Positions 6,001 through 62,300 of a stretch of DNA of 64,000 bases are shown in pieces (position 1 is the first letter of the stretch; the number at the start of each line of letters is the position of its first letter). Both the position numbers and the translations under genes were made by a program. Source of the stretch: Argopecten irradians (lineage: Eukaryota > Mollusca > Bivalvia > Pectinida > Pectinidae); assembly GCF_041381155.1 (NCBI RefSeq), contig NC_091141.1, positions 27,835,828 to 27,899,827 on the forward strand. The letters run 5' to 3'. The notes under the pieces were generated by a model, which was given only the letters and a program-made list of their open reading frames with translations, did not search any database and had not been told where the DNA came from.

Positions 6001-9000
6001 TAAAAAAATCAAAGGTGACGTACAACAGGAAAGAAAGTCCTTTAATTTCCTGTTTAGAAATAATAATTACTGTATCTAAAATCAAGGCATCCCAGCTCAG
6101 GTTTTTAATAAGCAAATTAGCAAAAAGGTATTTACTCAGATAGACTACTATATAATACTGGTGATAATAGTATCATTTAATCAATCTAAACCAACAATGG
6201 GTTACTATTTATATGTTAATTATCCACACCAGTCACACACAACACTTGACCCCTATATACTTTATAGTATACAGCTTGCTAACATGTAAACGTCTAAGGT
6301 ATAGTAACTGTCAAGGCTTTTCTGGCCTGACTTGTTCCCAACTCAATTAGATTTACATTTTTATATATACAGTATACACATTATCCTTTAACTATATGTC
6401 TCAGTATGTAAGTACTGTGCTATCAAGTGTAATAATAATTACTCAACATGAACTAGCAGGTTAAAACAATAGAAATATATTGTGTCGAAAATACATTTGC
6501 AAATTTATTCATGAAAAAAAAATATTGAGGATGAAAAATAAATAAATATAATACTGGCATATAAAACAATTTCTTGGCATTCGCTTTAAAGTCTGAATTC
6601 ATTTTATTGTGATTGAATTAAATTAAAGATAGATTTATTCATTCCAAAATCTTTGTAGCCAAGAACTGTCGTATTATTCTTATTAGAAGTACAGTCTTTT
6701 ACTTCAAATGAACTGTACTTATTAGAAGTATTTTACTTCAAATGAACTGTACTTATGAGAAGTATTTTGCTTCAAATGAACTGTACTTATGAGAAGTATT
6801 TTGCTTCAAATGAACTGTACTTATTAGAAGTATTTTACTTCAAATGAACTGTACTTATGAGAAGTATTTTACTTCAAATGAACTGTACTTATGAGAAGTA
6901 TTTTGCTTCAAATGAACTGTACTTATGAGAAGTATTTTGCTTCAAATGAACTGTACTTATGAGAAGTATTTTGCTTCAAATGAACTGTACTTATTAGAAG
7001 TATTTTGCTTCAAATGATGAACTGTACTTATGAGAAGTATTTTACTTCAAATGAACTGTACTTATGAGAAGTATTTTACTTCAAATGAACTGTACTTATT
7101 AGAAGTATTTTGCTTCAAATGAACTGTACTTATTAGAAGTATTTTGCTTCAAATGAACTGTACTTATTAGAAGTATTTTACTTCAAATGAACTGTACTTA
7201 TGAGAAGTATTTTACTTCAAATGAACTGTACTTATTAGAAGTATTTTACTTCAAATGAACTGTACTTATTAGAAGTATTTTGCTTCAAATGAACTGTACT
7301 TATTTGAAGTATTTTACTTCAAATGAACTGTACTTATTAGAAGTATTTTGCTTCAAATGAACTAAATCAATCATCCAGTAAACTGAAAAATAGGTGGGGG
7401 TCTTATTTGCAGATATTCCCACTACGTCTGGAATTGTGTCAAAATAGGTGAGGGGTCTTATTTGCGGGAGGGGTCTTATTTGCGGTCAAATACAGTATAT
7501 ATGTTTTGTTTACAGTTAGGATAGCTAGAACAGATATATCTTATATTTACAGCTGGGTTACCTAGATATATGTTTTGTTTACAGCTAATATATAAGTATA
7601 CATTAATTACTTGTCTTTCTGATGTTTGTCAGACCACTCCCACACCATATTGTGTCTGGATTGTGTATTAGGCCAAGAGTGGTCAGTTTACAGTGGTCAG
7701 TGATGTATAACTCTGGACTTCCTTAGCTAACTATCCTGTCACATATGCCCATAATATGTACTAAGTGAATCCACATCTAGCCTAAGGGAGTTACAACCAC
7801 TGGCCCACTTCCTATCAGATTTTCTAGCTATATATATAGGCTCATAGGGAAAATAGCTGATGGTTTTCAAGTTCTTGTTCAAGGAAAAGATAATTGCTAT
7901 AAAGTTGTTTATTTTCTTGCTATGTTTATCATTACCACTCTAGATCTATTATATTGATTATGCCTTGACAGGAAAGTCGTAGGAAATTTCTATTTACAGA
8001 TTATATTGTTATTATGATAACAATATTATCATATTCATAATATCCCACAATGAAACAGGCCAAATATCAGGTATTTGATTAACCCTTAAATAATCCACAA
8101 AAGTATCTTAGTGCTTTCAGCCAAATTGACTGCTGTGACATTGAATAAAGGTCAAGGTCATTCATTTCAACAAACTTTAGATCCCTACATCTCAAGATGC
8201 TATATGTCCAACATCAGGTCTTTTTTGGCCAATAATTAGTATTTGAGGAAAATTTGATCCTGTACTCCTACTGAAATGTTGTCCAAGTACAGTAATTAAA
8301 ATCTGATCACAGGTATATAGTCATGTAGAACATATACAGCTCAGCAGATCAGAAGATGACAAGATGAAAGGTACAGTATATCGTTTTATCACCCATTGAC
8401 ACAATGATTAAACAAAGCCTTGATCAAACATACTAGTGCCACCAGGAACATCACACATGGAATCTAGAGTATGATGTATACTAGTTAATATAACTTCCTG
8501 GGGCTAGAATACTGAGTAGGCAAGTGATGTACTGACTAGTACAATGAACTGTGTAGCACAATGACAACAAATAAAGTGTTACCTACGTACTCTGTAACTG
8601 GAAGTGTCACAACGACAATAAACCAAAAGGAACTGTTTCATTCATCTGAAACATATCACTAAATTTTACTTGGATTCATTTTATTTCAATTGTGACAAAA
8701 ATCCACCACAGATGATCACCTGGTTTCTATTTTAGAGACCGACCTTGACCTTTAAGCATCCTGCACATACATAAATGAATAATTGGAAACATCAATGATA
8801 AAGAGATTCAATCTATACAAAGTTTCACAAATTTCTGATGAATTTGAAATATTTGTAAGACATATCCCAGTCAATAGTATTATCTACAAATCAGTATACT
8901 GTATTCGACCCAATAAAAAAATTGAAAAAAATGAAAATAAGACGAAATTTTTGCAAATCTAGACAGTATTTTGTAGTTTTGGTCTTATTTTTTGCTTGGA

Positions 9001-19199: not shown

Positions 19200-21268
19200 G
19201 GGTGGTAGAGTTAAACTTCATTCATTGTCTCCACTAGATATGTGTCTTGTTTTGGTACTTGTTTGTGACTCTATGTTCCCCTCCGAGAGGGGAAAGGATG
19301 AAAGACTCGAGAGGACGTCCAACGGATTTTGACTGGAATGGATGTAGAGATCAAGTGCCACTGTGAGAAAGTCTGAAAAAATCTTCGGATCCACCAGTCG
19401 AAAGCGAAGTGCCAAACTAAGGAGAAACGGCAGCAGCGCACAGATATACCATCTGGTGAGACGCAGGAGGTTCCCAGCCAGGATTTACACCAAAGTGCTG
19501 AGGACCTCTCCGCTACTGTGTCGTCACAGCGAGACACCGCGAGTTCAATTGAGAGAGAAGATGGTCGAGGGACTAGAGCAGATGGACCTACAGTCGAAAG
19601 GAGGAGAAAGGTGATGTGGCCTCGAATAAGGGACAAGAACATGGAAACGACTAGACGAGGACTTGGATACCATGCTGGAGACAACACTGCAAGGTGGAGT
19701 GGAGAGAAAAATAAAGTCCTTGACAACAATTGTGTACACATTGGGATGTGAAAGATTTGTCACAGAGAAGCAGAAAAGGCAAGGTAATACTCACCAACCG
19801 AACAGAAAGGATTACTAGTTCAGCAAACTTAGACGGGAGCTGATCGAGATGTTTAAGGAATCGGTTCAGAAGGTCGATCAACATGGAGAGGATCGGTTCG
19901 CAACAGGTGTGAGACGACCTCAGGAAAATGAAATGAAATGAAATACCTTCGGAACGCTGAGAACACCAGGAAAAAGAGGCGAGAGGCAGCAAGGAAGAGG
20001 GCTGCATTTGTAGGAAACAAATTCTCGTCGGTACTTCATGGGGGAGTGAGATCGGGGAAGCTAGGGGCCAATAGAGAAAAGATTGAAGAACACCTGGACG
20101 AGAATCACTCTGATGCAAATAGGAACTTACCGCTAGGAGAGTGTTCCAGAATCCCCTTTTCTGAAGAACCATTAATTCCACATGATACGAAGAAGCCAAC
20201 ATTGAAGGAGATCACAGAAGCGGTCAGGAAGGCACGGACGGCAACAGCACCAGGACCTAGCGGCATACCATACAAGGTCTACAAGATGTGTCCAAAATTC
20301 CTGAAACGGCTGTGGAGGCTTTTAAAGTCATATGGAGGAAAGTCAAGATACCGGATAGTTGGCAAAAAGCCGAGGGAATATTTGTTCCGAAAGAGAAGGA
20401 TTCTAAGAACATCACACAATTCAGGACGATTTCTTTACTCAGTGTGGAGGGGAAGATCTTCTTTGCCATACTCGCCAGACGGATGACAACGTATATGACG
20501 GCAAATGAATACATTGGTTCATCTGTGCAGAAAGGAGGGATTACAGGATTCCCGGGGTGTGTTGAAGACACGAGTGCCATCACCCAGCTCATCAGGGAAG
20601 CTAAGATCAAGCACGGAGACCTCACTGTCATCTGGCTGGACCTCGCCAATGCCTATAGATCAATACCACACCAATTGATTCATGAGGCGTTGTAGCACTA
20701 CCACATCCCGGACCACGTCAAGGGGATAATCAGGAGCTATTTCAGCAACATCAAGCTCCTATTTACAGTGGGATATATGACCACAGCGTGGCAGGCGTTG
20801 GAGAAGGGGATCGTCACTGGCTGCACCATTTCGGTGCCACGTCCGGACCACGTCAAGGGGATAATCAGGAGCTATTTCAGCAACATCAAGCTCCTATTTA
20901 CAGTGGGATATATGACCACAGCGTGGCAGGCGTTGGAGAAGGGGATCGTCACTGGCTGCACCATTTCGGTGCCACGTCCCGGACCACGTCAAGGGGATAA
21001 TCAGGAGCTATTTCAGCAACATCAAGCTCCTATTTACAGTGGGATATATGACCACAGCGTGGCAGGCGTTGGAGAAGGGGATCGTCACTGGCTGCACCAT
21101 TTCGGTGATCCTGTTCGTGATGGGGATGAACCTGATTTTCAAGACAGCAGACAGAGAAAGCAGAGGCCCGACAACGTCATCGGGAATTCGACTACCACCA
21201 ACAGAGGCTTCATGGATGATCTGTCAGTGACCATTAAGCAAATGTCCTGTTTTGGTTTTCAAGAGTGA
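19200..21268 (+). mobile_element. Degraded non-LTR retrotransposon (LINE) with reverse transcriptase remnants
   Basis: Reverse transcriptase of a LINE-type element, broken by frameshifts and stops. In order: a basic region ending near 20170; APGPSGIPYKVYKMCPKFLK (about 20250-20310); KAEGIFVPKEKDSKNITQFR and SVQKGGITGFPGC after a frameshift near 20325; motif A as WLDLANAYRSIPH (about 20634-20672) with the catalytic Asp; a TAG at 20693; GYMTTAWQALEKGIVTGCTI; and motif C as GFMDDLSVT (about 21208-21234), with FMDD in place of YADD. The last two are in different frames. The endonuclease was not identified and the clade is not assigned. The copy cannot encode a working enzyme. Confidence 0.88.
20703..21107 (+). 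repeat. 135-bp triplication inside the LINE reverse transcriptase
   Basis: Three direct copies of about 135 bp begin near 20711, 20846 and 20982 (spacings 135 and 136). Each encodes the DHVKGIIRSYFSNIKLLFTV and GYMTTAWQALEK segment. Copy two lacks one C in its CCCGGACC, which shifts the frame. The copies are otherwise nearly identical, so the triplication is recent relative to the element's decay. Confidence 0.95.
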
Positions 21269-23560: not shown

Positions 23561-23639
23561 AACAGAACATTATCCGATATTGCTTGACCATAGATAGTTG
23601 TCCGTCGAATCAAAGCTTCCCAGAAACACATGCAAGGGC

Positions 23640-26168
23640 TCAGCTAGGAACTACACATGCATGAATTCAGCTTTCGTCAAAGATTTATAAGATTAAAAAT
23701 TTATATAATTCATAGTTTATATAGCGTTATATCAAACTATTCCTTACACAGTTTACATGCGATTTATATGATATTCATGTATCAATATTAATAATAAGTT
23801 ATGAAAATGTGTGCTATTTCCAATGAAAAAACGAAGATTCTTTCTTAAGCAAAAATATCAAATACATTGTAACAATAATAATACTATCAAACTTTATTTA
23901 GAACAGCATCATTTACATGAATACAGACAATGTAATATTTCAGACAATGTTTTTTTAAAACTACAAATAAAAATCAGCAGTAGGCTATATGAAATTTGTT
24001 AATAATTTAAAACAGTCTTTGTTTTTTCAGCAATACTGTTCATGTATAACAAGATTTAGCTTCACAAATACATAAGAAAGTTCCTCGGGTAGTTCGACAT
24101 CAGAAAACTTAACATTATAAAATATATTACAATACTTCTTAACTGTTTTCACTCTCACTCATCCAACCATTTGTTCTAGTACTCCTCTAAAAAGGAATTT
24201 CGAATCGGATAAACAAATACTGTAATCTGAATATTTTAGTGGTGGTAATGATGTTTTAACGTTTTCCGCGCCCCACGCAAGTTTACGTTTAACATGGTTC
24301 TAATTGTCGTTAGTAGTGACAATTTACCAGTGTGTTGACCTGTTCAAAATAATTTCTACGCAAAAATTTGAATCTGTCAAAATGGATAGGTTCATAATAT
24401 CTCTTTCAAACTACTTATATCACTATTGGACTAGAATTGCTAGATCGCTCCTGGTTGAATTCACACTGTACTTTTCAAGGGAGAGAGGTGGGGGGAGGTG
24501 GAAAGAGAGAGAGAGATCGGTTTTCAGCTGTATGTAGTCAAATACAGTATAATTATTAAATGCAAAAATAATTTGTCATTGTTTCGTATATTGTATAGTA
24601 AAATATCTAGGTTGAACAAATAAGACAATATTTAGGTTAAACACAAGAAATAAAACAAAATATCGATAAGCACACATGTACCAGAGATAATATAACAATA
24701 TATCTAGATGGTAAAAATGAGAAATAAGAAAATATTGATGTTTTACACACGAGAAAGTGACTTCGCCATCTTTCAGCAAGGATCTTTAATTACTGTATCA
24801 TTACCAATATGACCCAAATCTGAGCTGAGAAAAAAGGTAGCAAACGAGACAAAGATTGTATAATAAATTAGGGTCAAAATTGTACACAATAAACAAAAAC
24901 AAAGAGGCTAAGGACCGAACCTTTTGCAAAAAATGATAAATTAATAAAATCACGTCAATTGTAACAATGCGTTAAAATATGATAGCCTATAATAATATGG
25001 CGGTATGGTTTTTGAAAGCATTAATGTTCGTGTAGCAAAAACTTCATCGGTCGTACAAATGTATACATGTAATAAAAAATAGAACTGTAGACATATGATA
25101 GGTAAAATACTAGTTTACGTTATTTTATAAGGACAGTAACTTTGATTCTTCATTAGAGTATCTAACTAGAATCCAAAACACACACAATGTGAATGTTTCT
25201 ATACTACCAAATGCATACCAATAACACAGTAGGTAGAATCAAGGATTTATAAGTATATACGTCCTTGGTAGAATACTCATTGTCCTAGTACATATTCAGT
25301 ATGAAAGTACTAAAGGCACATATGTTCATCAAACTGTTGTATAAAATATAACACTTTAATTGCACAATCTAAATCCACCGGAACAAACGGACGAAATAAA
25401 ACAGGTTACTGACACATCACTATAATGATAAACAAATGATTTACATACGAATCTATCTACATTGCTTGTAAAATCGTTCTAAATTCGTCAAAAAAAAAAC
25501 AACATACCGACTAACATGATTGAACTTTCACTAAGTTGAATTAACTTGTGTCCAATCTCTATTGATTATGACAATAAAATATCTTTAAAATCAAGTGATT
25601 AGACTAGTCACGGACAGAGAGAAGATAGCCTACAACAGACTTTTCATAAATACATACATCGATCACAATTCAAATAAATACAAAGTACATTGACCGCTGC
25701 ACTAATGCAACAAAACCAGGTATATACATTTTAAATATACACTACATCTGAAAAATTGGGCACCATTTACTACAAAATACAAAAATAAACAATAAAATTA
25801 ATCTTTGGAATCTCTGCTTCTTATTTCATTCTAAGGGGAGATAATCTAATCATGTTGACTGTCTATAAGCAAGACAGCAAATTTCTTTAAAACATTACTT
25901 TGTATAAATACAGAATACTTCATACGGACTATAAAATGATCTTTCATTACCTATAAAATGCACGTGATCAATATTTAGGTGTAATACGAAGAGATGCGAT
26001 AAAGGCGGCAGTGTATTTAAAGGACATGTATACAAATTAACAAACTATTCATAAATATATCAAGTAATATCAATTTTACTGCCAAAAGAGCACTAAGGAA
26101 TATCAAATATAATGAGATGTATATATCATTGGAGGACATCATTAATAACAAATATTTATAAGCGTAAA
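23640..26168 (-). other. Probable 3' UTR of the DRAM2-like gene
   Basis: This stretch follows the stop codon, is AT-rich, and lacks tandem repeats or convincing ORFs on either strand. A minus-strand AATAAA lies near 23893, which would give a 3' UTR of about 2.3 kb. The end point is inferred, not seen. Confidence 0.3.
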
Positions 26169-26273
26169 TTACGTGTTGGGGTCATCATTTGCCGGGGTAT
26201 TAATTACATCTTCTCCATTAATGGAAGTCTTGCCAAAATCGTCAAGTGGTACAACCACTTCACCGTTTTCAAA
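26169..26273 (-). CDS. DRAM2: DRAM2-like exon 8 (C-terminal tail and stop)
   Basis: Acceptor GATTTATTTCAG|TTTGAA; 34 codons then TAA at 26171-26169. The tail FENGEVVVPLDDFGKTSING and on to DDPNT is acidic and hydrophilic, as expected of a cytosolic C-terminus. It has no recognisable DRAM2 C-terminal homology, so the assignment rests on phase, strand and splice sites. Confidence 0.65.
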   Translation of the reverse strand, partial: FENGEVVVPLDDFGKTSINGEDVINTPANDDPNT

Positions 26274-29200
26274 CTGAAATAAATCAATAAAAAAGTGAAG
26301 GTATTATTCATTAGAGTGGTGTCCTTTGTGTATTTGATACAGGATATACAGTTAAACCATAATCAGTATCTTATAGACATACATAATTTTTCTGTGGTCG
26401 ATACACCCATGTATTGGCCGAAATGAAAATGCTACACTTGTTTTATTATTTTTCTGGATTTTTTACATTTTGAAATGAGTGTGAAACTAAATAAGCATCG
26501 CATTGTAAATTCTGCTTCGTGATGAGTTACAATCTTATGATTTTGTAACAAGTATAATTTAAAAACAACATATGAAAACAGTATCAATTGATGCACTTCA
26601 CGCATTTAATACACGCACCCGGTGCATGCGTGTTTGTAAACGACACAGTTAATTAAATGTATAGTTTGTTCTCCTTTGAAATAATTCAATTCGACGTCAA
26701 ACATATATTAACAAATTCAGATTGACATTAAGATACATTCTCTTATGCTTAATACTCCATTAAACTGTAGTCATCATTATCTTTGTTAGAAACCGAAACA
26801 ATCAACGTCGTCTGTCACATTTGTGGTTACGCTTCAAACTCAGGTCATCATATACAATTATAGCATTTTGATGAGGTCGATGCATGGTTTTATTGACCAC
26901 AGAAAAATTGTCGACCGAGGACGTAGTCCGAGGTTGATAATTGTATTTGGTCAATAAAAACATCCATCGACCGAATTCAAAATGCTACAATTATTTTCTT
27001 ATTTGAATTGTTTTTTCTTTACAAGCAATAAATAAGAAGACATGTACAACAATCTAGTGTATACATCTTCATTTGTATTTCATGATATATTACCAGAAAT
27101 TGAACAGTAAATATCAAAATGATCATATAGTATACAAAAGCATCTTTAAAGAAACAATACTTGAAATCATATCACTTTACAAGTCGATTTCTAACTAGTA
27201 ATCATGACCTGTGGTAAATATTTGGGAGTAGCATAGTTGTTGACGTTTTAATGATCAGAAATAAAATGAATAAATATTGAAGGGTAAGTAAATCTCCCCA
27301 TTAACATCACGGAAATGAAATGAAGCTAAATTTGCCACAAATTGAAACATGGGACGAACCAATCGTAATTATGACATGCCCAAATATCGCACGAGGACAC
27401 AGCTGATGAACGACAATAAAAATTCAAAATTCAAAACGCATGTTTTTGGAAAACCCTATACTTACGTGAGAGGGGTTGAAGTCTATACTTACATGAAAGG
27501 GGTTGAAGTCTATACTTACATGAGAGGGGTTGAAGTCTATACATACATGAGAGGGGTTGAAGTCTATACTTACATGAGAGGGTTTGAAGTCTTTACTTAC
27601 ATGAAGAGGGGTTGAAATCCATACTTACATGAAGAGGGGTTGAAGTCCATACTTACATGAAGAGGGGTTGAAGTCTATACTTACATGAGAGGGGTTGAAG
27701 TCTATACTTACGTGAGAGGGGTTGAAGTCTATACTTACGTGAGAGGGGTTGAAGTCTATACTTACGTGAGAGGGGTTGAAGTCTATACTTACATGAGAGG
27801 GGTTGAAGTCTATACTTACGTGAGAGGGGTTGAAGTCTATACTTACGTGAGAGGGGTTGAAGTCTATACTTACATGAGAGGGGTTGAAGTCTATACTTAC
27901 GTGAGAGGGGTTGAAATCTATACTTACGTGAGAGGGGTTAAAGTCTATACTTACATGAGAGGGGTTGAAATCTATACTTACGTGAGATGGGTTGAAATCT
28001 ATACTTACGTGAGAGGGGTTGAAGTCTTTACTTACATGAGAGGGGTTGAAGTCTATACAAGTTTAAATGAGAGGGGTTGAAATCTATACCTACATGAGAG
28101 GGGTTGAAGTCTATATTGATGTGAGTGTGAGAGAACATTCGGAATCCAGGAATGAAAGTGAGTAGGAAGAGAGTTACTGAGAAAGTGAGAAGCCACTCGG
28201 AGATCGTAGATACCAAGAATACCGTCCGGAGGGTGTCCTATAAATGTAAAACATACCTTTAAATGTGATATTTAGTGTAGTTGCCGTAAAATGACTAGAT
28301 CTCTATTATCTTGACAAACAAATTGTTGGTTTTAAAACTATCCAAATTTCAAGAACATAATGTGCTGCCCTTTGGTAAAGCGTCACATATGCTGCACGGT
28401 TAAAGTTCAAAGGGAAGGTTATAGGATCTCATATCTCTTGCATAATGTCCCATTTGAATCTTTACTTTTAATTTACTTGATCATTTAGACGAGGTTTTTA
28501 CAGATTTTTGGAAGTATCTAGGACAACAACAGAACTCTTGTAGTTTGTGAATTGCTTATATTATCGCCTTACACGGGTATGATCATATTCTTACCCATTT
28601 CGTGCCTAGTCCGGCATCTCTACCCGAGTTGTATTTATACTTCGAAACGGCGACTTGTTGTGAGTGAAGGAAATGTTAACATTAATGTAAACGAAATTCA
28701 ATCATCTGATTTCTTAGATCATCAACTGTTATATCAAGAATTATTTTATTATTGATTGACATGGCTACTTCCACTCAACCAATTTATCAAAAAATATACA
28801 GATTCGTTCTTATGCTTGACACATTTTATCAATTCAAGGTTTATATTTCGTATTAGTAAAGCGAAATGAGGACGACGTACTGAAACACCTAAAAGAAGTT
28901 TTGACAACAAAATGTTTCCAAACTTGACTTAGCAATATAAGGATACATGTGACGAATAGAAGTGATGACAGAATACTGCTGATAGTCTGGCAAATCTTGG
29001 TGATCCGGAAGTGACGACTTCTGTGCTCTCTGATGACGTCAAACTGTTCTATCTTAAAGGTAATTGCGGTCTGTAGCCACGCATAGAACATGGCACATCC
29101 AAAGCACATGAACGCACCGAGATAGTGAGGAGGCTTCATCGTATCTACCTGTAGATTAAAACACGTGATTGGCCAACTTACAAAAGAGCAACATTATTAT

Positions 29201-32200
29201 AGATGGACCTTTAGAAATAACATATAATTGGCTGATCTACAGAGCTAACAACTTTTGATTGGCAGACCCACGGAATAATGGCATTTACATTGTTCGCATT
29301 TAAATATAAAGTTTTATGGTGAAAAAATATATGTGTTATTTTTGGTCTGAGTGAAACTATCGGTTTCATTAGATATAAATTGTGTAATAACCAATCACAA
29401 TAAAGTACAAATATCATTTTGGCAGGATTTCTTTTGTAAATATCAAACCAAAATTATAATATTATGTCATCTTTCCATATTTTCAGGTGCATTTGATTAA
29501 TTAAAGTGGGCTAAAAAGGTATCGCGGCCGATTGAAACACACTTACTGCTAGTATATGTAGGCTTAGGCTAAGCCTAAGAAGCCTAGGATTGAGAAGTAA
29601 AAATGTAATAAATAGAATATTAATTGTTTCTTGATGAATACCAGTAATAGTTCATCTCGTGAGGTGGAAAATTTATATATTTTTCACTGGTGTAAATGAT
29701 ATAGACTTTTCACCTCACTCGATGAAATATACTGTTGTTCATCAATAACAAGGAATATCCTTAAAGTTATATGTGCCGTAACTGGCCGAAAATTTTGACA
29801 TGTTATTTTTTCTTCAATTATCTATTTAAAACCATAAGTTTTAATGAATAAAGCTGTGAAAATCATTCAAATGGACAGACAAACAAATATAATGCCTTAT
29901 AAACGTTAGTTGGAACAAATAGGTTATGCACTGTGAAACTCTTGTTTTTTATGCCATATACACGTTTAGATGGAGACATACCTTCAGAAATCACATTACT
30001 AATAATACTGTAAAAATGTGCAATGAAATTGTGGACAACAATATGGCTTCATTGTCTGACCGTATGAACTCATTTCACTACACTGAAGATGTTAATAATG
30101 ATTTTTGGCAGTACTGCCAAATATCATTTTCAGCTCTCTTTTGTACTTTTAAAACTAAAACCTATACATTGAATGTATTGTAATTTTCAAAATGTTGGTA
30201 ACTTTTGGAGTTGAATAACATATCAAAAGCTCTTCTTGATTCGTGACTATGAAAAATACGGCACATATAACTTAAAGTGTGTTAAAGTAATTGTAAATGA
30301 TTAGTAGACATACAGAATACAGAGTGATTGGTCGACCTATAACATAACGGCATGTGATTGGTCAACTTATAAAATAACAATATACGATTGGTTGACTTAC
30401 AAAATACATGTAATAACAAATGATCGATCGAACTGGGTGGTCGATTAATAAAATATCTTAAAAGATAATGTATACTTGTGTGAAAATGACAGTGTTAAGA
30501 AATCACAAAACTAGTCTGCAATATCACATCCAAAAAGCTAAATAGCTATTGTTCATACGCGATATTGTGAACAAATGTAAACTTATAAAGTTCGTTCGTA
30601 GTCCCCACATATAATGTTCAAGTCCTTTTTGCATCTATCTAACCAGATCCTGAAATCAACAACTATCATGTATTTACCTGGAAACAGGCGACGAACAGCA
30701 AACCTAGTCCGGACAGCATTCCCAGACTCAGACCTACTTTATTAATTATCGTCCATCTTTTCAGATTAAACGATTCCACAGGATGGTGGTGTATTAACAA
30801 CTTTTTGATGAACAGATATTGCATCTCAGCGTTAGCGGCCACTGTCAATAAAGAAAAGCAAATAAAGTTGTAAATATGGATTTCACTTAGTCTCTTGTGG
30901 TAACTGTAATAAATTTTGGGACAATCAAAATTGAAGTACTGGAGACTAATGGAACGACGTTAATAACTTAAAGATGCTCCACAGCTGACAAATGGTTATT
31001 TTTCTCTATCTAAAATGAGAGCAGACGATTTAGTATTTTTATTCAGTTACAAAAGTTACTCACTTGACACCATTAGCACCACTGAAAAGTTTGAGCTTCT
31101 GATTTTACATCAAGATAAAAATATCAAAAAATGATTAATTCCATCCCGAATAAAAATCCGTGGCACCATGTCATATATGGAATGCAGTACTGATTGCGCG
31201 TACACCGAAAACAAAATAAATTATTTTAAACTACTTTTTGTGTTAATTAGACATATATATACACAATTACACACCAAATCTTGTTCAAATGATGGGTATC
31301 TGTCGGCGGTGGAACATCTTTAATAAGTAATTTAGCATTTTCATTATCAATTTTCGTCTGGGTTATTGAAGTAACTACAACACTACAAATCTACATGAGT
31401 TTAATGTCTCGATCGTGTGTCCTAGTTATCTATGTCATACAATATATGGTTTGCTTTACTTACGAAACACTGCTCCGATTGCTATGGTAATGGTGAAAAT
31501 GCCCTGTTCTGGTGGTTCCACTGCAGTATAGCTATAATAACAAAATGTGTGTTTAATGTCCTTGGATAGAGGTATTTGGTGGTAATGATACAATCTTACT
31601 TAATTGTTTTATTTTACTTTCAGGTTTACATACTTGACGATATAAACAAAGTAAGTTATCTGATCGTATTATCGGAATTTTTTGTATTGTTTCATCCTCA
31701 CTGCTTCTTATAAATTTGAAGGCTTGTGATATATCTAATTTCAGTGTTAAAACATATAAATTCAAATCCCATCGTGTAAAATAGATACACGCATGATTAT
31801 CATATTTTGCTTTTGCTTTAGTTCTTTTTTCACATTGTTATTTGTCATCAGTATCAGTGTTGCTTCTGTAGTCATCACACGTCTTATATACATATGTAGC
31901 TAATTACCATACTGACTGACATATTGTCCTCTGTCACCTTGTGCTTCTACATGTCATATTAATAATGAAAACGTTTGCACTGTTCCCCTGATGCGTGCTT
32001 TGCATTTGGAAGAAATAAAAACTTGTAAACTTGTGTGTACAATAAAATGAACCGGTTTTCATTTCTGTTATTTTTTATCAGATATTAGATAACTTCCAAA
32101 AAACAGAATGATTATAAAGTCAACCTACCTTATATACGGGAAGTCTGGAAATGTGTGGTTATTTGCTACTGCAATTCCGTATCTGTTAAACAAAATAAAG

Positions 32201-34151
32201 TTAATTCAAAGCCATATCGTCATTAAAGGCCCACTACCTTTCCGGAGCAAAATTTAAAGGTTTCTAAAAATCATAGATCACATAAGAAAATATATGTCGA
32301 TGGCCTAAGATGAGGTTACGACATGAAGCTTATGCAAGATATCCTGCGTAATAATTTATATGGTAACAGTTGGGTTTCATTTCACTGTTTTTCCTTCTGG
32401 CGCAGTGATAATCAACTACCGCGCGGCATTTAGGACGACGGCGGGAAACATAAGACGACCCGCGTTATGAAAATTAACATTTTATTTATTTAAATTAAAT
32501 TGTTCAGAAGGTGATGATAAGTGTAGAATTACCGGTAAGTTGATAACTTTTGCGACTCTACAAAATTATCAATCTCGTTTTACATTTCCATTTTAAAAAT
32601 TAAAAGCCGTTTCGGAAAGGTAGTGGGCCTTTATTGCACGAAATGGTGTTTTTTTTTGTTTTTGTTTTTTTTTTGTTTTTTTTTTTTAAATTTTTGTTAA
32701 TAAATAGATATTAACAATGTATAATGGTGTATTTCAAAATGATTTACAAATCTCAGTTTTCAATCATGTTAAAATCGAATTTGTTCTATTTGTCTTGAGT
32801 CAAATTATCCACACTTATGACCTACATCTTTTCCTTACTTTATTAACAAAAAATGGCATTTGTTGATATCGCAGAAATGGTGAAAATGAAGCATATTGGA
32901 AATCGCAATTGAGGCAGTTGCCAAAACTGAAGATGCTGTTCTGAAAATAGCAGCAAGCTTACTTGAAATAGGAAATCAGACAAGGTGTACTATACCTATG
33001 GTTTCTTTAGTCATTGGAGATTCTGATCTAACCCCAGTTTGATCTATTTCTGTTTGAAAAGTGTCAATGTGACCTAATTATATATGTTTGTCGTTGTGAC
33101 TTATATAGATGTAGCTAGATGTATGGCTGGTGTCACCGTGACCTTGTTCTGTATGGCGGGTGTCACCGTGCCCTAGTTCTGTATGGCGGGTGTAACCGTG
33201 ACCTAGTTCTGTATGGCGAGTGTCACTGTGACCTACTTCTGTATGAAATATTTCGCTGTGACCTAGTTCTGAATGGAAGATTTCGTTGTGACCTACTTCT
33301 GTATGGAAAATTTCTCTGTGACCTTGTTCTGTTTGGCGGATGTTGCTTTGGTCAGTATGGTTTGTGTCGCTGTGACCTAGTTTCGTATAGAGGGTGTCGC
33401 TATGACCTATTTCTGTATGAACGGTGTTGTTGTGAACTAGTTTTGTACAACGGGTATCGTTATGACCCAGTTCTGTATGGCCTAGTTATGTATGGAGCAT
33501 GTCGAAGGTCTGTACAGGTTTCGCTGTGACCTATTTCTGTATTGAGGATGTCGTCGTGACCTATATCTGTATTGAAGTATCGTTAGGACCTTGCTCTGTA
33601 GGACAGTTGTCGTTGTGACTTGGTTCAGTTTGGATGGTGTTGCTGTGACTTTGTGCAGTATGGTTTGTGTCGCTGTAACCTAGTTTCGTATAGAGTGTGT
33701 CACTATGGCCTATTTCTGTATGACATGTGTTTTTATGACCTAGTTCTGTATGTCGAGTGTAGCTGTAACCTAGTTCTGTATGGCGAGTGTCGCTGTTACC
33801 TAATTCTGTATTGAGGATATCGCTGTGACCTATATCTGAATGGCATGAGTCGTTATGACCTATTTTGGAATGGCGGGGTATTGCTGTGACCTAGTTCTGT
33901 ATTGAGAGTCTCATTGTGACCTAGTTACTGATAGGTCGTACAATACAAATAGATATGTAACGTACACTTATCACGTTTATGCAATTTCCTAGAACGGATA
34001 TACACGGGTATTACTAGTATTACCAAGTGCCATGTACAGGTGCTAGCTACAATACTTACGTCACAAAACACCAGGACATGATCCAGGTGAACGTGAGAAT
34101 TGGGAGTAGCCACATACATCCTCCCAGACACTTGGCAGCCACGAGCAGCAT
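26169..34151 (-). CDS. DRAM2: DRAM2/TMEM150-family six-transmembrane protein (complete, 8 coding exons)
   Basis: Coding exons: 34151-34060, 32182-32129, 31531-31464, 30841-30678, 29148-28881, 28653-28595, 28237-28094, 26273-26169 (stop). All phases agree and give 317 residues. The family (Frag1/DRAM/Sfk1) comprises six-pass proteins of lysosome or plasma membrane; DRAM members promote autophagy. Key matches are NKVGLSLGMLSGLGLLFVACFQ, like the NKAGLVLG...VANFQ block of DRAM2; PHYLGAFMCFG, like the HVSGA helix; and STISEWLLTFSVTLFLLTF, like the AEW...FLTY last helix. Six hydrophobic segments are visible. It is longer than human DRAM2 (266), partly because of a 9-residue repeat-derived segment and a 34-residue acidic tail. 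The DRAM versus TMEM150 subfamily assignment is less certain than the family. Confidence 0.87.
26853..26995. mobile_element. Foldback element, about 140 bp
   Basis: ACAATTATAGCATTTTGATG...GGTCGATGCATGGTTTTATTGACCA pairs with the mirror block ending AAAATGCTACAATTATTT. The centre CGAGGACGTAGTCCGAGG is itself a palindrome. It lies in the last DRAM2-like intron. A half-sized relative (GGTCGATACACCCATG...AAAATGCTACA) is at about 26395-26440. Confidence 0.75.
27465..28120 (-). repeat. 27-bp minisatellite carrying a 5' splice site in each unit
   Basis: On the minus strand the unit reads GTAAGTATAGACTTCAACCC then CTCTCAC, so each junction is CTCAC|GTAAGTATAG, close to the consensus donor. About two dozen units; most are 27 bp, three near 27600-27680 are 28 bp, and one near 28055 is irregular (31 bp, no donor). 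It starts inside the end of DRAM2-like exon 7 and fills the start of the following intron. Open frames across it on the plus strand are repeat artefacts. Confidence 0.95.
28094..28237 (-). CDS. DRAM2: DRAM2-like exon 7 (TM6; 3' end made of minisatellite)
   Basis: 144 bp, phase 0 on both sides, acceptor TTTATAG|GACACC. It encodes DTLRTVFLVSTISEWLLTFS and on to FIPGFRMFSHTH, then INIDFNPSH. The last nine codons match one 27-bp unit of the array that follows directly (unit translation VSIDFNPSH). The donor used here is CTCAT|GTAGGT at 28093, the only one in the array that keeps frame with the last exon as read. Confidence 0.8.
28595..28653 (-). CDS. DRAM2: DRAM2-like exon 6 (small loop exon)
   Basis: 59 bp, acceptor CACAACAAG|TCGCC and donor AAATGG|GTAAGA. 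It encodes AVSKYKYNSGRDAGLGTKW, the loop before the last helix; human DRAM2 has HSGNFGTDLEQKLHW at the same place. Found by homology and phase; the acceptor has a modest pyrimidine tract, so its exact left end is the least certain boundary of the gene. Confidence 0.65.
28881..29148 (-). CDS. DRAM2: DRAM2-like exon 5 (TM4 and TM5)
   Basis: Acceptor TCTACAG|GTAGAT; phase 0 start VDTMKPPHYLGAFMCFGCAM. TM4 spans about YLGAFMCFGCAMFYAWLQTA; TM5 spans about SSILSSLLFVTCILILLS. I place the donor at TTTCA|GTACGT because only this matches the phase of the next exon; reading on would meet a stop 16 codons later. Donor choice is an inference. Confidence 0.8.
29626..29752. mobile_element. Foldback element, about 125 bp
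   Basis: TTGATGAATACCAGTAATAG...TCGTGAGGTG pairs with CACCTCACTCGATGAAATATACTGTTGTTCATCAA. It lies in the DRAM2-like intron between exons 5 and 4. Confidence 0.75.
30678..30841 (-). CDS. DRAM2: DRAM2-like exon 4 (TM2 end and TM3)
   Basis: 164 bp between ATTGACAG|TGGCCG and TTCCAG|GTAAAT. It finishes TM2, has a basic loop (IKKLLIHHHP...LKRW), then NKVGLSLGMLSGLGLLFVAC as TM3 ending in the family FQ. This is the best-conserved block of the protein. Confidence 0.9.
31464..31531 (-). CDS. DRAM2: DRAM2-like exon 3
   Basis: 68 bp between TTATTATAG|CTATAC and GTTTC|GTAAGT. It encodes YTAVEPPEQGIFTITIAIGAVF, the end of the first loop and start of the second membrane helix. The PPEQGIF stretch corresponds to the APEKCLF/PAEQG-type loop of DRAM and TMEM150 proteins. 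Confidence 0.82.
32129..32182 (-). CDS. DRAM2: DRAM2-like exon 2
   Basis: 54 bp between TTTAACAG|ATACGG and ATAAG|GTAGGT. It encodes (T)YGIAVANNHTFPDFPYI(S), the first extracytoplasmic loop, with an NHT N-glycosylation sequon. The PYIS motif matches the corresponding loop of human DRAM2 (LPYISDTG), which supports the assignment. Confidence 0.82.
32227..32630 (-). mobile_element. TTAA-flanked MITE, copy in DRAM2-like intron 1
   Basis: 404 bp, termini AGGCCCACTACCTTTCCG and its complement, flanked by TTAA (32223-32226) and TTAT (32631-32634, one change). It lies 45 bp from the exon 2 acceptor and is probably removed with the intron. Confidence 0.88.
33080..33930. repeat. Degenerate 30-bp minisatellite, about 28 units, DRAM2-like intron 1
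   Basis: Unit near GTGTCGCTGTGACCTAGTTC then TGTATGGCG. Units differ by 10-30%, so the array is old. The 136-codon open frame over it (YGGCHRDLVL-type repeats) is an artefact of the 30-bp period. Confidence 0.93.
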
Positions 34152-41139: not shown

Positions 41140-42185
41140 ATGGATTAATTAATAAGTTTGTATGTGAACTTGGATTAATGAATGTGTGAACGTGGATTGA
41201 TGAGTGTGAACGTGGATTAATGAGTGTGTGAACGTGGATTGGCAATGAGTGTTACGGTGAACGTGGGATTGTGAGTGTGTGAACTTGGGTTAATGGGTGT
41301 GTGAACGTGGGTTAATGAGTGTGTGAACGTGGATTGAAGAGTATGTGAACGTGGATTGATCGAAAGTGTGTGAACGTGGGATTGTGAGTGTGTGAACTTG
41401 GGTTAATGAGTATGTGAACGTGGCTTAATGAGTATGTGAACGTGGATTGAAGAGTGTGTGAACGTGGATTGATCGAAAGTGTGTGAACGTGGGATTGTGA
41501 GTGTGTGAACTTGGGTTAATGAGTATGTGAACGTGGGTTAATGAGTGTATGAACGTGGATTGATGAGTGTGTGAACTTGTGTGAACGTGGAAGGGTGAGT
41601 GTGTGAACGTGGATGGTTGAGTGTGTGAACGTGGGTTAATGAGTATATGAACGTGGATGGGTGAGTGTGTGAACGTGGATTGATGAGTGTTGAACGTGGA
41701 TGGTTGAGTGTGTGAACGTGGATGGTTGAGTGTGTGAACGTGGATTGAAGAGTGTGGACGTGGGTTAATGAGTGTATGAACGTGGATGGTTGAGTGTGTG
41801 AACGTGGATTGATGAATGTTGAACGTGGATGGGTGAGTGTGTGAACGTGGATTGAAGAGTGTGGACGTGGGTTAATGAGTGTATGAACGTGGATGGGTGA
41901 GTGTGTGAACGTTGATTGATGAATGTTGAACGTGGATGGTTGAGTGTGTGAACGTGGATGGTTGAGTGTGTGAACGTGGATTGAAGAGTGTGGACGTGGG
42001 TTAATGAGTGTATGAACGTGGATGGGTGAGTGTGTGAACGTGGATTGGTGAGTGTGTGAACGTGGATGGGTGATTGTGTGAACGTGGATTGAAGAGTGTG
42101 GACGTGGATTTATGTTTGTGCATATATATGGATTACTGAATTTGTGGATTGAAGATTGTGCACTTGGATTGATGAGTCTGGACGT
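41140..42185. repeat. 22-bp minisatellite, about 45 units
   Basis: Unit near GAGTGTGTGAACGTGGATTG with AT/AA, with many 20- to 24-bp variants (GGATGGTT, GGGTTAAT, GAAGAGTGTGGACGTG). Blocks of several variants repeat as larger units, for example about 41745-41790, 41850-41900 and 41975-42020. Intergenic; the region on either side has no gene that I can support. Confidence 0.93.
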
Positions 42186-50939: not shown

Positions 50940-53900
50940 ACTTTGTCCGAATGTCAATCTCTTATACTAATTGTCGATCTCATGGACAAGTTATCATGTC
51001 TGAATGTTGATATCGCAGACAAATTATCACATGGGATTGTATGTCTGAATGTTGATCTCACAGACAAATTATCACATGTGATTGTATGTCTGAATGTTGA
51101 TATCACAGACAAAGTATCACATGGGATTGCATGTCTGAATGTTGATCTTACAGACAAATTATCACATGGGATTGTATGTCTGAATGTTGATCTCACAGAC
51201 AAGTTATCACATGGGATTGTATGTCTGAATGTTGATATCACAGACAAAGTATCACATGGGATTGCATGTCTGAATGTTGATCTTACAGACAAATTATCAC
51301 ATGGGATTGTATGTCTGAATGTTGATCTTACAGACAAATTATCACATGGGATTGTATGTCTGAATGTTGATTTCACAGAAAAGTTATCACATGGGATTGT
51401 ATGTCTGAATGTTGATCTCACAGACAAATTATAACATGGGATTGTATGTCTGAATGTTGATCTCACAGACAAATTATCACATGGGATTGTATGTCTGAAT
51501 GTTGATCTTACAGACAAATTATCACATGGGATTGTATGTCTGAATGTTGATCTCACAGACAAAGTTATCACATGGGATTGTATGTCTGAATGTTGATCTT
51601 ACAGACAAATTATCACATGGGATTGTATGTCTGAATGTTGATCTCACAGACAAATTATCACATGGGATTGTATGTCTGAATGTTGATCTTACAGACAAAT
51701 TATCACATGGATTGTATGTCTGAATGTTGATTCACAGAAAATTATCACATGGGATTGTAAATGTTGATCTTCAAGACAAAGTATCACATGGGATTGTATG
51801 CCTGAATGTTGATCTCACAGACAAATTATCACATGGGATTGTATGTCTGAATGTTGATCTCACAGACAAACTATCACATGAAATTGTATTTCTGAATGTT
51901 GATCTTCCAGACAAACTATCACACGGGATTGATTGCCTGAATGTTGATCTCACAGACAAACTATTGCATGGGATTGTATGTCTGAATGTTGACCTCACAG
52001 ACAAACTATCACATGAAATTGTATTTCTGAATGTTGATCTTACAGACAAACTATCACATGGGATTGTATGTCTGAATGTTGATCTCACAGACAAGTTATC
52101 ACATGGGAATTTATATCTGAATGTTGATCTCACAGAAAAGTTATCACATGTGATTGTATGTCTGAATGTTGATCATACAGACAAATTATCACATGGGATT
52201 GTATGTCTGAATGTTGATCTCACAGACAAATTATCACATGGGATTGTATGTCTGAATGTTGATCTCACAGACAAATTATCACATGGGATTGTATGTCTGA
52301 ATGTTGATCTCACAGACAAATTATCACATGGGATTGTATGTCTGAATGTTGATCTTACAGACAAATTATCACATGGGATTGTATGTCTGAATGTTGATCT
52401 TACAGACAAATTATCACATGGGATTGTATGTCTGAATGTTGATCTCACAGACAATTGATCACAATTGATTGTATGTCTGAATGTTGATCTTACAGACAAA
52501 TTATCACATGGGATTGTATGTCTGAATGTTGATCTCACAGACAAATTATCACATGGGATTGTATGTCTGAATGTTGATCTTACAGACAAATTATCACATG
52601 GGATTATATGTCTGAATATTGATCTTACAGACAAAGTATCACATTGGATTGTATGTCTGAATGCTGATCTTACAGACAAATTATCACATGGGATTGTATG
52701 TCTGAATGTTGATCTTACAGACAAATTATCACATGGGATTGTATGTCTGAATGTTGATCTCACAGACAATTATCACATGGGATTGTATGTCTGAATGTTG
52801 ATCTTACAGACAAATTATCACATGCGATTGTATGTCTGAATGTTGATCTCACAGACAAATTATCACATGGGATTGTATGTCTGAATGTTGATCTCACAGA
52901 CAAGTTATCACATGGGAATTTATATCTGAATGTTGATCTCACAGAAAAGTTATCACATGTGATTGTATGTCTGAATGTTGATCATACAGACAAATTATCA
53001 CATGGGATTGTATGTCTGAATGTTGATCTCACAGACAAGTTATCACATGGGAATGTATATCTGAATGTTGATCACACATGACAAAGTTATCACATGGGAT
53101 TGTATGTCTGAATGTTGATATCACAGACAAATTATCACATGGGATTGTATGTCTGAATGTTGATCTTACAGACAAATTATCACATGGGATTGTATGTCTG
53201 AATGTTGATCTTACAGACAAATTATCACATGGGATTGTATGTCTGAATGTTGATCTCACAGACAATTGATCACAATTGATTGTATGTCTGAATGATGATC
53301 TTACAGACAAATTATCACATGGGATTGTATGTCTGAATGTTGCTCTTACAGACAAATTATCACATGGGATTGTATGTCTGAATGTTGATCTTACAGACAA
53401 ATTATCACATGGGATTGTATGTCTGAATGTTGATCTTACAGACAAATTATCACATGGGATTGTATGTCTGAATGCTGATCTTACAGACAAATTATCACAT
53501 GGGATTGTATGTCTGAATGTTGATCTTACAGACAAATTATCACATGGGATTGTATGTCTGAATGTTGATCTCACAGACAATTGATCACAATTGATTGTAT
53601 GTCTGAATGTTGATCTTACAGACAAATTATCACATGGGATTGTATGTCTGAATGTTGATCTTACAGACAAATTATCACATGGGATTGTATGTCTGAATGT
53701 TGATCTTACAGACAAATTATCACATGGGATTGTATGTCTGAATGTTGATCTTACAGACAAATTATCACATGGGATTGTATGTCTGAATGTTGATCTCACA
53801 GACAAATTATCACATGGGATTGTATGTCTGAATGTTGATCTTACAGACAAATTATCACATGGGATTGTATGTCTGAATGTTGATCTCACAGACAAATTAT

Positions 53901-54825
53901 CACATGGGATTGTATGTCTGAATGTTGATCTTACAGACAAATTATCACATGGGATTGTATGTCTGAATGTTGATCTTACAGACAAATTATCACATGGGAT
54001 TGTATGTCTGAATGTTGATCTTACAGACAAATTATCACATGGGATTGTATGTCTGAATGTTGATCTTCCACAGACAAGTTATCACATGGGATTGTATGTC
54101 TGAATGTTGATCTCACAGACAAATTATCACATGGGATTGTATGTCTGAATGTTGATCTTACAGACAAATTATCACATGGGATTGTATGTCTGAATGTTGA
54201 TCTTACAGACAAATTATCACATGGGATTGTATGTCTGAATGTTGATCTTACAGACAAATTATCACATGGGATTGTATGTCTGAATGTTGATCTCACAGAC
54301 AAATTATCACATGGGATTGTATGTCTGAATGTTGATCTTACAGACAAATTATCACATGGGATTGTTATGTCTGAATGTTGATCTACAGACAAATTATCAC
54401 ATGGATGTATGTCAATGTTGATACAGACAAATTATCACATGGGATTGTATGTCTGAATGTTGATCTCACAGACAAATTATCACATGGGATTGTATGTCTG
54501 AATGTTGATCTCACAGACAAGTTATCACATGGGATTGTATGTCTGAATGTTGATCTCACAGACAAGTTATCACATGGGATTGTATGTCTGAATGTTGATC
54601 TCACAGACAAATTATCACATGAAATTGTATGTCTGAATGTTGATCTTACAGACAAGTGATCACCTGTGATTGTATGTCTAAATGTTGATCTCACAGACAA
54701 GTTATCACATGGGATTGTATGTCTGAATGTTGATCTCACAGACAAATTATCACATGGGATTGTATATCTGAATGCTGATCTTACAGACAAACTATCACAT
54801 GGGATTGTATGTCTGAATGTTAATC
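50940..54825. repeat. 45-bp satellite, about 86 units
   Basis: Unit ACAAATTATCACATGGGATT then GTATGTCTGAATGTTGATCT then YACAG. 45 is a multiple of three, and the unit has no stop in one frame on each strand, giving long open frames (HGIVCLNVDLTDKLS repeated on plus, SVRSTFRHTIPCDNL on minus). Higher-order structure is visible: a three-unit motif recurs 135 bp apart near 51100-51250, and a run of rare variants at 52090-52190 recurs at about 52895-52990. No promoter, splice structure or start supports translation. Confidence 0.95.
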
Positions 54826-59385: not shown

Positions 59386-62300
59386 CTGCAAGAGGAAACA
59401 GTGTTAATTCTCTGATGCAATTCAAATTAGGGCTGAGAGTCACTTTAGATATTTAACATTATCAGAGAATATGTCGAGAATACAGTTATCACAAATCAAA
59501 TAAATTGAAAAATAATTGGTTAGACTTGACATACCTTGCACTTTTCACATTTCTTCTGATCTTAGCTTTACTGCTGAATACAGATGGAGTCCTGAAACAG
59601 TAAAATATCGTGTTGAGTATTGTGTTTCAAATACAAAACAGTAATATATCGCGTTGAGTGTTGTGTTTCAAATACAAAACAGTAGTATATCGTGTTGAGT
59701 GTTGTGTTTCAAATACAAAACAGTAGTATATCGTGTTGAGTATTGTGTTTCAAATACAAAACAGTAGTATATCGTGTTGAGTGTTGTGTTTCAAATACAA
59801 AACAGTAGTATATCGTGTTGAGTGTTGTGTTTCAAATACAAAACAGTAGTATATCGTGTTGAGTGTTGTGTTTCAAATACAAAACAGTAGTATATCGTGT
59901 AGAGTATTGTGTTTCAAATACAAAAACAGTAGTATATCGTGTTGAGTGTTGTGTTTCAAATACAAAACAGTAGCATATCGTGTTGAGTATTGTCTTTCAA
60001 ATACAAAACAGTAATATATTGTATTGAGTATCATGTTCCAAATACAAAACAGTAGTATATCGTGTTGAGTGTTGTGTTTCAAATACAAAACAGTAGTATA
60101 TCGTGTTGAGTATTGTGTTTCAAATACAAAACAGTAGTATATCGTGTTGAGTATTGTGTTTCAAATACAAAACAGTAATATATCGTGTTGAGTGTTGTGT
60201 TTCAAATACAAAATAGTAATATATCGTGTTGAGTATCATGTTTCAAATACAAAACAGTTATATCGCCTTGAGTATCATCAGGTTTCAAATACAAAGCAGT
60301 AATATATCGTGTTGAGTGTTGTGTTTCAAATACACAACCTCAGTGAGTATAACTGTCAATTATCAGAACTTATGGTTACAAACAAGTCTAACATCAGAAG
60401 TGGTCCAAAGAAAAGCTCAATCCTCAGGAACAGCTGATGGGACACCAACATGTAATAGGTACAGTACAGGAATACTTACTGTCCTTCAATTTCAATGTCA
60501 GCCTCATCCTGAAGGGCAGCATCTAGGGCTGCCTGTATCCTGGGGGCCACTTGTGGTCCATCATAATCTCGTGTAGTTCGATTGGGCATATCTAGTTCAA
60601 CCATTAGTATATTTTCACCCTGAAAAAGAATTGGTAACATGGTACAGTATTTCTTGTATCTTTTGGCTAGGAGATCCAAACCACTACACATATATACATG
60701 GTCAGGTTTGGCTAGGAGATCCAATCCACTACACACTACACACATAACATGGTCAGGTTTGGCTAGAAGATCCAATCCACTACACACTACACACATAACA
60801 TGGTCAGGTTTGGCTAGGAGATCCAATCCACTACACACATAACATGGTCAGGTTTGGCTAGGAGATCCAATCCACTACACACATAACATGGTCAGGTTTG
60901 GCTAGAAGATCCAATCCACTACACACTACACACATAACATGGTCAGGTTTGGCTAGGAGATCCAATCCACTACACACTACACACATAACATGGTCAGGTT
61001 TGGCTAGGAGATCCAATCCACTACACACATAACATGGTCAGGTTTGGCTAGGAGATCCAATCCACTACACACTACACACATAACATGGTCAGGTTTGGCT
61101 AGAAGATCCAATCCACTACACACTACACACATAACATGGTCAGGTTTCCAATCCACTACACACATAACATGGTCAGGTTTCCAATCCACTACACACATAA
61201 CATGGTCAGGTTTCCAATCCACTACACACATAACATGGTCAGGTTTCCAATCCACTACACATATAACATGGTCAGGTTTGGCTAGAAGATCCAATCCACT
61301 ACACACTACACACATAACATGGTCAGGTTTGGCTAGGAGATCCAATCCACTACACACTACACACATAACATGGTCAGGTTTGGCTAGGAGATCCAATCCA
61401 CTACACACTACACACATAACATGGTCAGGTTTGGCTAGAAGATCCAATCCACTACACACTACACACATAACATGGTCAGGTTTGGCTAGGAGATCCAAAC
61501 CACTACACACATAACATGGTCAGGTTTGGCTAGGAGATCCAATCCACTACACACTACACACATAACATGGTCAGGTTTGGCTAGGAGATCCAATCCACTA
61601 CACACTACACACATAACATGGTCAGGTTTGGCTAGGAGATCCAATCCACTACACACTACATACTAACATGGTCAGGTTTGGCTAGGAGATCCAATCCACT
61701 ACACACTACACACATAACATGGTCAGGTTTGGCTAGAAGATCCAATCCACTACACACTACATACTAACATGGTCAGGTTTGGCTAGGAGATCCAAACCAC
61801 TACACACTACACATATAACATGGTCAGGTTTGGCCTGGAGTTCTAATCCACTACACACTACACACATAACATGGTCAGGTTTGGCTAGAGATCTAATCCA
61901 ATACACTACACACATAACATGGTCAGGTTTGGCTAGAAGATCCAATCCACTACACACATAACATGGTCAGGTTTTCCAATCCACTACACACTAACACAGG
62001 TTTCCAATCCACTACACACATAACATGGTCAGGTTTGGCTAGAAGATCCAATCCACTACACACTACACACATAACATGGTCAGGTTTCCAATCCACTACA
62101 CATATAACATGGTCAGGTTTGGCTAGAAGATCCAATCCACTACACACTACACACATAACATGGTCAGGTTTGGCTAGGAGATCCAATCCACTACACACTA
62201 CACACATAACATGGTCAGGTTTGGCTAGGAGATCCAATCCACTACACACTACACACATAACATGGTCAGGTTTGGCTAGGAGATCCAATCCACTACACAC

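Follow-up and report, generated by a model that had tools for sequence, protein, structure and literature searches.

A minisatellite that begins inside a coding exon and carries a splice donor in nearly every unit raises the question of how it arose, and of which donor the gene would use. Such an array lies in a stretch of 64,000 nucleotides from the bivalve Argopecten irradians (assembly GCF_041381155.1, contig NC_091141.1, positions 27,835,828 to 27,899,827), which is referred to here, in its full length, as the window.

The gene and the array at its penultimate coding exon

By profile match, a gene of the Frag1/DRAM/Sfk1 family lies on the minus strand of the window. The predicted protein, queried without one residue (L54) of the final model, matched Pfam PF10277 (Frag1/DRAM/Sfk1) over positions 46-218 of the 220 in the profile with 76.6 bits against a curated cut-off of 30.3; an initial annotation of this DNA had called the gene DRAM2-like. 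The predicted seven-exon model (Table 1) is frame-consistent, is open over 834 nt (277 codons and a stop) and uses the donor at 28093. The exon that adjoins the array, numbered 7 in the initial annotation, is exon 6 of 7 in the present model and would encode DTLRT...GFRMFSHTHINIDFNPSH; its prediction is based on the gene model, the Frag1 match of the whole protein and paralog exons with phase-0 donors in a comparable position. The predicted last exon, which would supply a tail of 34 residues, is one of nine phase-0 candidates in the window that pass a crude acceptor filter. Intron 1 of this model contains a 30-bp minisatellite (33130-33926).

Table 1. Features of the DRAM-family gene model and of the array, in window coordinates. 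A slash marks the predicted exon-intron border.
Feature	Position	Strand	Basis or remark
Exon 1 of model	34151-34060	-	Frame-consistent gene model
Exon 2 of model	31531-31464	-	Frame-consistent gene model
Exon 3 of model	30841-30678	-	Frame-consistent gene model
Exon 4 of model	29148-28947	-	Frame-consistent gene model
Exon 5 of model	28653-28595	-	Frame-consistent gene model
Exon 6 of 7, penultimate coding exon	28237-28094	-	144 nt, phase 0 at start and end
Predicted last coding exon, FENGEVVVPLDDFGKTSINGEDVINTPANDDPNT then stop	26169-26273	-	Model; acceptor AG 26275-26274
Minisatellite	27456-28115	-	Consensus TATAGACTTCAACCCCTCTCA[C/T]GTAAG; TRF, unit split, tallies
Possible decayed earlier unit, 20 exon bases	28116-28135	-	12/20 in register with unit
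Likeliest real donor, CAT/GTAGGT	28085-28093, GT at 28093	-	Phase 0; keeps 34-residue tail
Unit 2, 31 bp	28058-28088	-	Link TTAAACTTG replaces GTAAG; no GT at donor place
22 deeper donor copies	27465-28035	-	21 GTAAGT and one GTATGT (27546)
In-frame TAA inside array	28028-28030	-	Met from any donor 28008 inwards, or on intron retention

On the coding strand the penultimate exon continues directly into the tandem array, as both TRF and a split of the array by pattern bear out. TRF gives a period of 27 and 24.2 copies; the split gives 24 units, 20 of them of exactly 27 bp, three of 28 bp and one of 31 bp, in keeping with the two dozen 27-bp units first described. Each unit joins 22 exon-like bases, the body (TATAGACTTCAACCCCTCTCA[C/T], with variants), to five donor bases, which we call the link, and TATAG stands at both ends of the array. 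At the donor place after the body, 23 of the 24 units have GT and 21 have GTAAG; the body ends in CAT 14 times and in CAC 10 times, and GTAAGTATAG follows in 17 of 24. The form CTCAC followed by GTAAGTATAG, originally ascribed to most units, is true of 10 of the 24, CAT being the commoner ending. A search with the 21-base core of the unit, allowing up to three mismatches, found 23 matches in the window and a mean of 0 in 100 shuffles, which rules out chance similarity as the source of the array. A 139-codon frame that would place a plus-strand gene over the array was dismissed, since it can be put down to a repeat length that is a multiple of three.

The codons INIDFNPSH at the end of the exon are one unit, as the initial annotation had recognised, with ATCAA where most other units carry GTAAG and an otherwise matching sequence. 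The 31-bp unit that it described is likewise present, and its length (27 + 4 bp) shifts the reading frame; at the link position of this unit a noisy sister copy (L010, discussed below) reads GTAAACTTG. All three links nearest the exon (window 28058-28120) are altered, to ATCAA, GTAGG and TTAAACTTG, with the adjoining unit bodies intact, and among the remaining 22 links one (GTATG) differs from GTAAG.

Sister copies, paralogs and the old end of the exon

Relatives were sought in the whole assembly (845.8 Mb, 1508 contigs). The exact unit occurs in at least 20 places at three loci, namely the window (11), scaffold C11 (8) and the unplaced contig C459 (1), and a dispersed repeat family is unsupported as its source, with the exact unit found at these loci only and the counts being lower bounds. 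A query of 411 bases from the intron flank returned at least 41 matches (40 of 81 candidates were scored); the three that span the flank are these loci again, and the other 38, all inside query bases 1-88, resemble a dispersed element. In the viral contigs no relative was found, none of 12 candidate stretches being confirmed.

The C11 locus at 16.52 Mb (L009, 16517000-16524500) aligns with window 23572-29326 at about 92% identity, and the 3' part of the gene together with the region downstream of it is duplicated on this other scaffold; the first three exons had no convincing match in the C11 stretches examined, to 16532500. The arrays on C11 and on C8, the window's own scaffold, share a collinear, gap-free stretch of 571 bp in which 7 positions mismatch. 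TRF counts 21.3 copies on C11 against 24.2 in the window, and the difference is a deletion on C11 that also removed the exon end; the frame of the C11 copy stops because the end of exon 6 was lost together with the first units. The two loci differ by 1.2% in the array (7/573) and by roughly 0.8-5.2% across the remaining non-coding regions that were compared: 18/1138 in the intron right of the array, 74/2497 downstream, and 4/289, 3/357 and 9/173 in the introns between or before exons 4-6. Coding differences number 2/205 in exon 4, 0/59 in exon 5 and 0/66 at the start of exon 6, and the last exon, which the C11 copy also has, differs by one substitution in 105 aligned bases. That the window copy is itself non-functional, and its array an irrelevant repeat, strikes us as improbable. 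The partial duplicate on C11 is broken and the donor after exon 4 (28946) has a poor score on a human donor matrix, as that reading would have it, whereas the window copy has one open frame across seven exons.

Contig C459 (L010, 1-9000) aligns with the C11 locus but is interrupted by numerous small insertions of the sort expected from uncorrected long reads. Against sequence on which the window and C11 are identical, it is equal at 1094 positions and shows 136 insertions, 77 substitutions and 4 deletions; at substitutions between the two it sides with C11 29 times and with the window 11 times, and it has 6.4 kb of further flank in common with C11. It appears to represent the C11 locus in another, uncorrected allele. 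Its single bases carry no weight because of the high error rate, and it was set aside for reading frames as too noisy. Its exon-array border consists of GT, then about 21 more T, then ATTATTCAA ahead of the first TATAG, and the first unit is followed by GTAAG.

A search with the peptide of the exon found 10 places: the window, C11, four paralogs on C8 and four at chance level (on C29, C106, C10 and C7, E 5 to 8), which were dropped. Two of the four paralogs are weak when taken alone (E 0.07 and 0.13) and have the same S-E-W motif and reading frame. A family search gave 25 matches, of which L048, L051, L059, L061 and L066 were inspected; C16 was left out, and the family genes on C7 were left out as too distant for placing the exon end. 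On the window's own scaffold, a cluster of at least three more DRAM-like genes occupies C8:32.80-32.89 Mb.

In three of the four paralogs the exon is open up to a predicted phase-0 donor, the exon ends being read from sequence and not from annotation: ...FKKIKLKSPRIQTKFTNIVSP/GTAAGT at C8:32.88 Mb, ...FRTIDYDGGIVKWKAPVSSSV/GTAAGA at C8:32.81 Mb and ...FRSIVLESPKVKLNFQQLEN/GTAAGT at C8:32.86 Mb. The whole-assembly search for the exact array unit, whose counts are lower bounds, did not find it at these three. Downstream of them lie 3, 4 and 1 candidate short phase-0 last exons by the same crude filter that gives nine in the window. In the fourth paralog, at C8:16.52 Mb, and in a fifth gene, at C8:38.08 Mb (via the family search), the frame reads on into a stop. 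From the F-R/K motif to the predicted donor the three paralogs have 19, 19 and 18 codons, and the window gene has 15, or 6 without INIDFNPSH. In our view the length of the paralog exons favours an old end of the exon close to where it ends today. The residues themselves are less telling: INIDFNPSH scores no better against the paralog tails than 132 of 2000 shuffles, which is not significant, and all 15 tail residues against five paralog tails are equalled by 188 of 2000.

The initial annotation had offered a different history, in which an old donor just after the HTH codons was lost (GTAAGT becoming ATCAAT) and splicing shifted one unit downstream, adding nine residues to the protein. We consider this unlikely. 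The bases ahead of ATCAAT, CTCAC and 20 exon bases in all, are unit-like in register, as the proposal would predict, and FSHTHINIDFNPSH can be aligned at 64% with the array peptide FNPSHVSIDFNPSH, though the second half of FSHTHINIDFNPSH is unit 1 itself. Against it, the paralog exons extend 18-19 codons beyond the F-R/K motif and not six, and it is this comparison of exon length that makes nine added residues appear disfavoured. Moreover, the first unit differs at three bases, all of them in its 5-base link, with the 22-base body unchanged (the C/T at the last base set aside), and the noisy C459 copy has ATTCAA, not GTAAG, ahead of the first TATAG.

The likeness of the exon bases ahead of the array to the unit depends on the length compared. 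In register, matches amount to 7/10, 9/15, 12/20 and 13/27, and as good a match is reached at 149, 123, 41 and 607, respectively, of about 63,370 coding-strand positions outside the array. The corresponding fractions are 0.0024, 0.0019 and 0.0096 for 10, 15 and 27 bases and 41/63,371 (the pre-array position included) for 20 bases, the best of the four lengths tried. Within the same exon only 1 of 103 positions reaches the 20-base value, the pre-array one itself. An older, decayed copy may therefore lie in the exon, with an older history of repetition at the exon end. Such a likeness says nothing on a donor at that place, and an older, shifted junction would fit as well.

Reading frames and the choice of donor

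When the frames are read through the predicted junctions, 28093 is the only donor in the array that would retain the 34-residue tail. A second GT overlaps it at 28089 (TAG/GTATAG), 4 nt away. Joined to the last exon, 28089 and 28035 would both run into TGA two bases into that exon, and the other 21 donors would meet TAA at 28030-28028, 22-565 nt before the junction. The initial annotation had all donors beyond the first run into TGA immediately after the join to the last exon, which is right for 28035 and 28089 and wrong for the 21 others; its corollary that a deeper choice would remove the tail is correct for each of them. It had further seen in the array a reserve of donors, and a working reserve is doubtful because in this allele every deeper donor would shorten the protein. 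A unit of 27 nt is nine codons and its coding frame is free of stops, so that without the four extra bases of unit 2 the donors as far as the first 28-bp unit would all be in phase 0.

Donors were scored with a matrix for human introns, and pairing with U1 was computed in register. On this scale 28093 reaches 2.77, CAC/GTAAGT 4.52, CAT/GTAAGT 5.33 and the GTATGT copy 2.50; the pairing energies are -4.6 kcal/mol for 28093, -5.2 for CAC/GTAAGT, -4.9 for CAT/GTAAGT, -0.5 for the GTATGT copy and -5.6 for 28089. Eight of the 22 deeper copies were scored individually, and the other 14 share one of the 9-mers CAC/GTAAGT and CAT/GTAAGT. The 21 GTAAGT copies thus outscore the first donor by the human-intron matrix, and the deeper donors could win, which counts against the explanation that we favour below. 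A spliced retrocopy with the predicted junction was not found in the same assembly at up to two mismatches.

The strength of the deeper donors also bears on whether the array could be a working set of alternative donors, one that regulates the tail of the DRAM protein or cuts productive splicing by means of the stop within the array. Besides the scores, the consequences of their use would suit such a role, 28035 leading to a stop in the last exon and deeper donors to the TAA within the array. Yet the copies would exist by descent from a founder in any case, and the divergence of the array from that on C11, compared with the range elsewhere in non-coding sequence, reveals no clear constraint. 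We regard regulation by a donor set as having little probability. A more elaborate version would have a ladder of donors tune the output of full-length DRAM, with U1 distributed among 23 unit donors, the single productive one being among the weakest, and with nine in-frame residues once added per unit until the 31-bp unit put an end to this; this seems very improbable.

Origin of the array and comparison with known systems

The explanation that we consider probable is that the array is an intronic minisatellite born at a junction, with 28093 most likely the productive donor and the 22 deeper copies decoys or rarely used. The founder would have been a 27-bp stretch lying across the exon-intron junction, made up of 22 exon-type bases and the first five bases of the intron, which was repeated in tandem, probably through slippage between the short TATAG direct repeats that bound it. 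The outcome would be an intronic minisatellite in a DRAM-family gene, in which the donor of the first copy, at 28093, sets the exon end that keeps the frame, and use of any deeper copy would exchange the 34-residue tail for a short one. On this account the units carry donors because they were copied from a junction and not because donors were selected. Origin by slippage, use of 28093, the exon ends of the paralogs and little or no function of the other copies are all points that we infer from sequence.

Slippage between short repeats is an ordinary start for minisatellites, and TATAG at both ends of the array is weak evidence for it here. The window holds seven arrays of at least 10 copies, a run of T left out, which together make up 9,375 bp (14.6%). 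With minisatellites this common, an array that begins on a junction needs no special cause, and we would expect founders that happen to span a junction not to be rare. The other six arrays lie at 6693-7363, 33130-33926, 41163-42114, 50996-54825, 59595-60338 and 60682-62402. Elsewhere in the window, at 20701-21107, a 135-bp segment is present three times in tandem within a frame recognised by eye as reverse-transcriptase-like. The junction founder does not explain the changed state of the three links nearest the exon.

The locus is a natural case in which a single donor keeps the frame and 22 near-identical competitors lie behind it at almost regular intervals, and it may be useful for studying how the spliceosome selects one of many equal donors. 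A further suggestion from it is that an exon-intron junction can give rise to a minisatellite, with units that appear functional yet are only copies. Given the share of minisatellite sequence in the window, more junction-born cases may be expected.

Overlapping tandem donors of the GTNNGT type are known, and 28093 and 28089, at 4 nt apart, resemble them; the array differs from them in its spacing of 27 bp and its 23 unit donors. The repeat unit of human IFI6 is 12 bp. IFI6 (6-16) is a known case of a minisatellite at the end of an exon with units that act as splice donors (PMC4526556; also cited in PMC2915984, PMC3618361 and PMC2572611); in PMC4526556, two downstream repeat units are described as serving as donors, which gives rise to three mRNA species. 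The array described here likewise adjoins a predicted coding exon, has its first unit inside that exon and bears donor-like sites in its units. The use of these donors is predicted only, whereas use of several donors is reported for IFI6, and gene, organism and unit length (27 bp here) differ, as does the predicted effect of deeper donors, which here would shorten the protein. Tandem duplication of coding sequence can also generate novel introns and splice signals, according to Lehmann et al. 2010 (PMC2891723). In the cases given there, as here, a splice-type signal is copied by tandem duplication, which leaves more than one site to choose from; the new intron in those cases comes from a duplicated proto-splice site, whereas here an existing donor would have been multiplied many times inside its own intron. 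The kind of system is thus already known from human IFI6, and the array of the DRAM-family gene is a new member of it.
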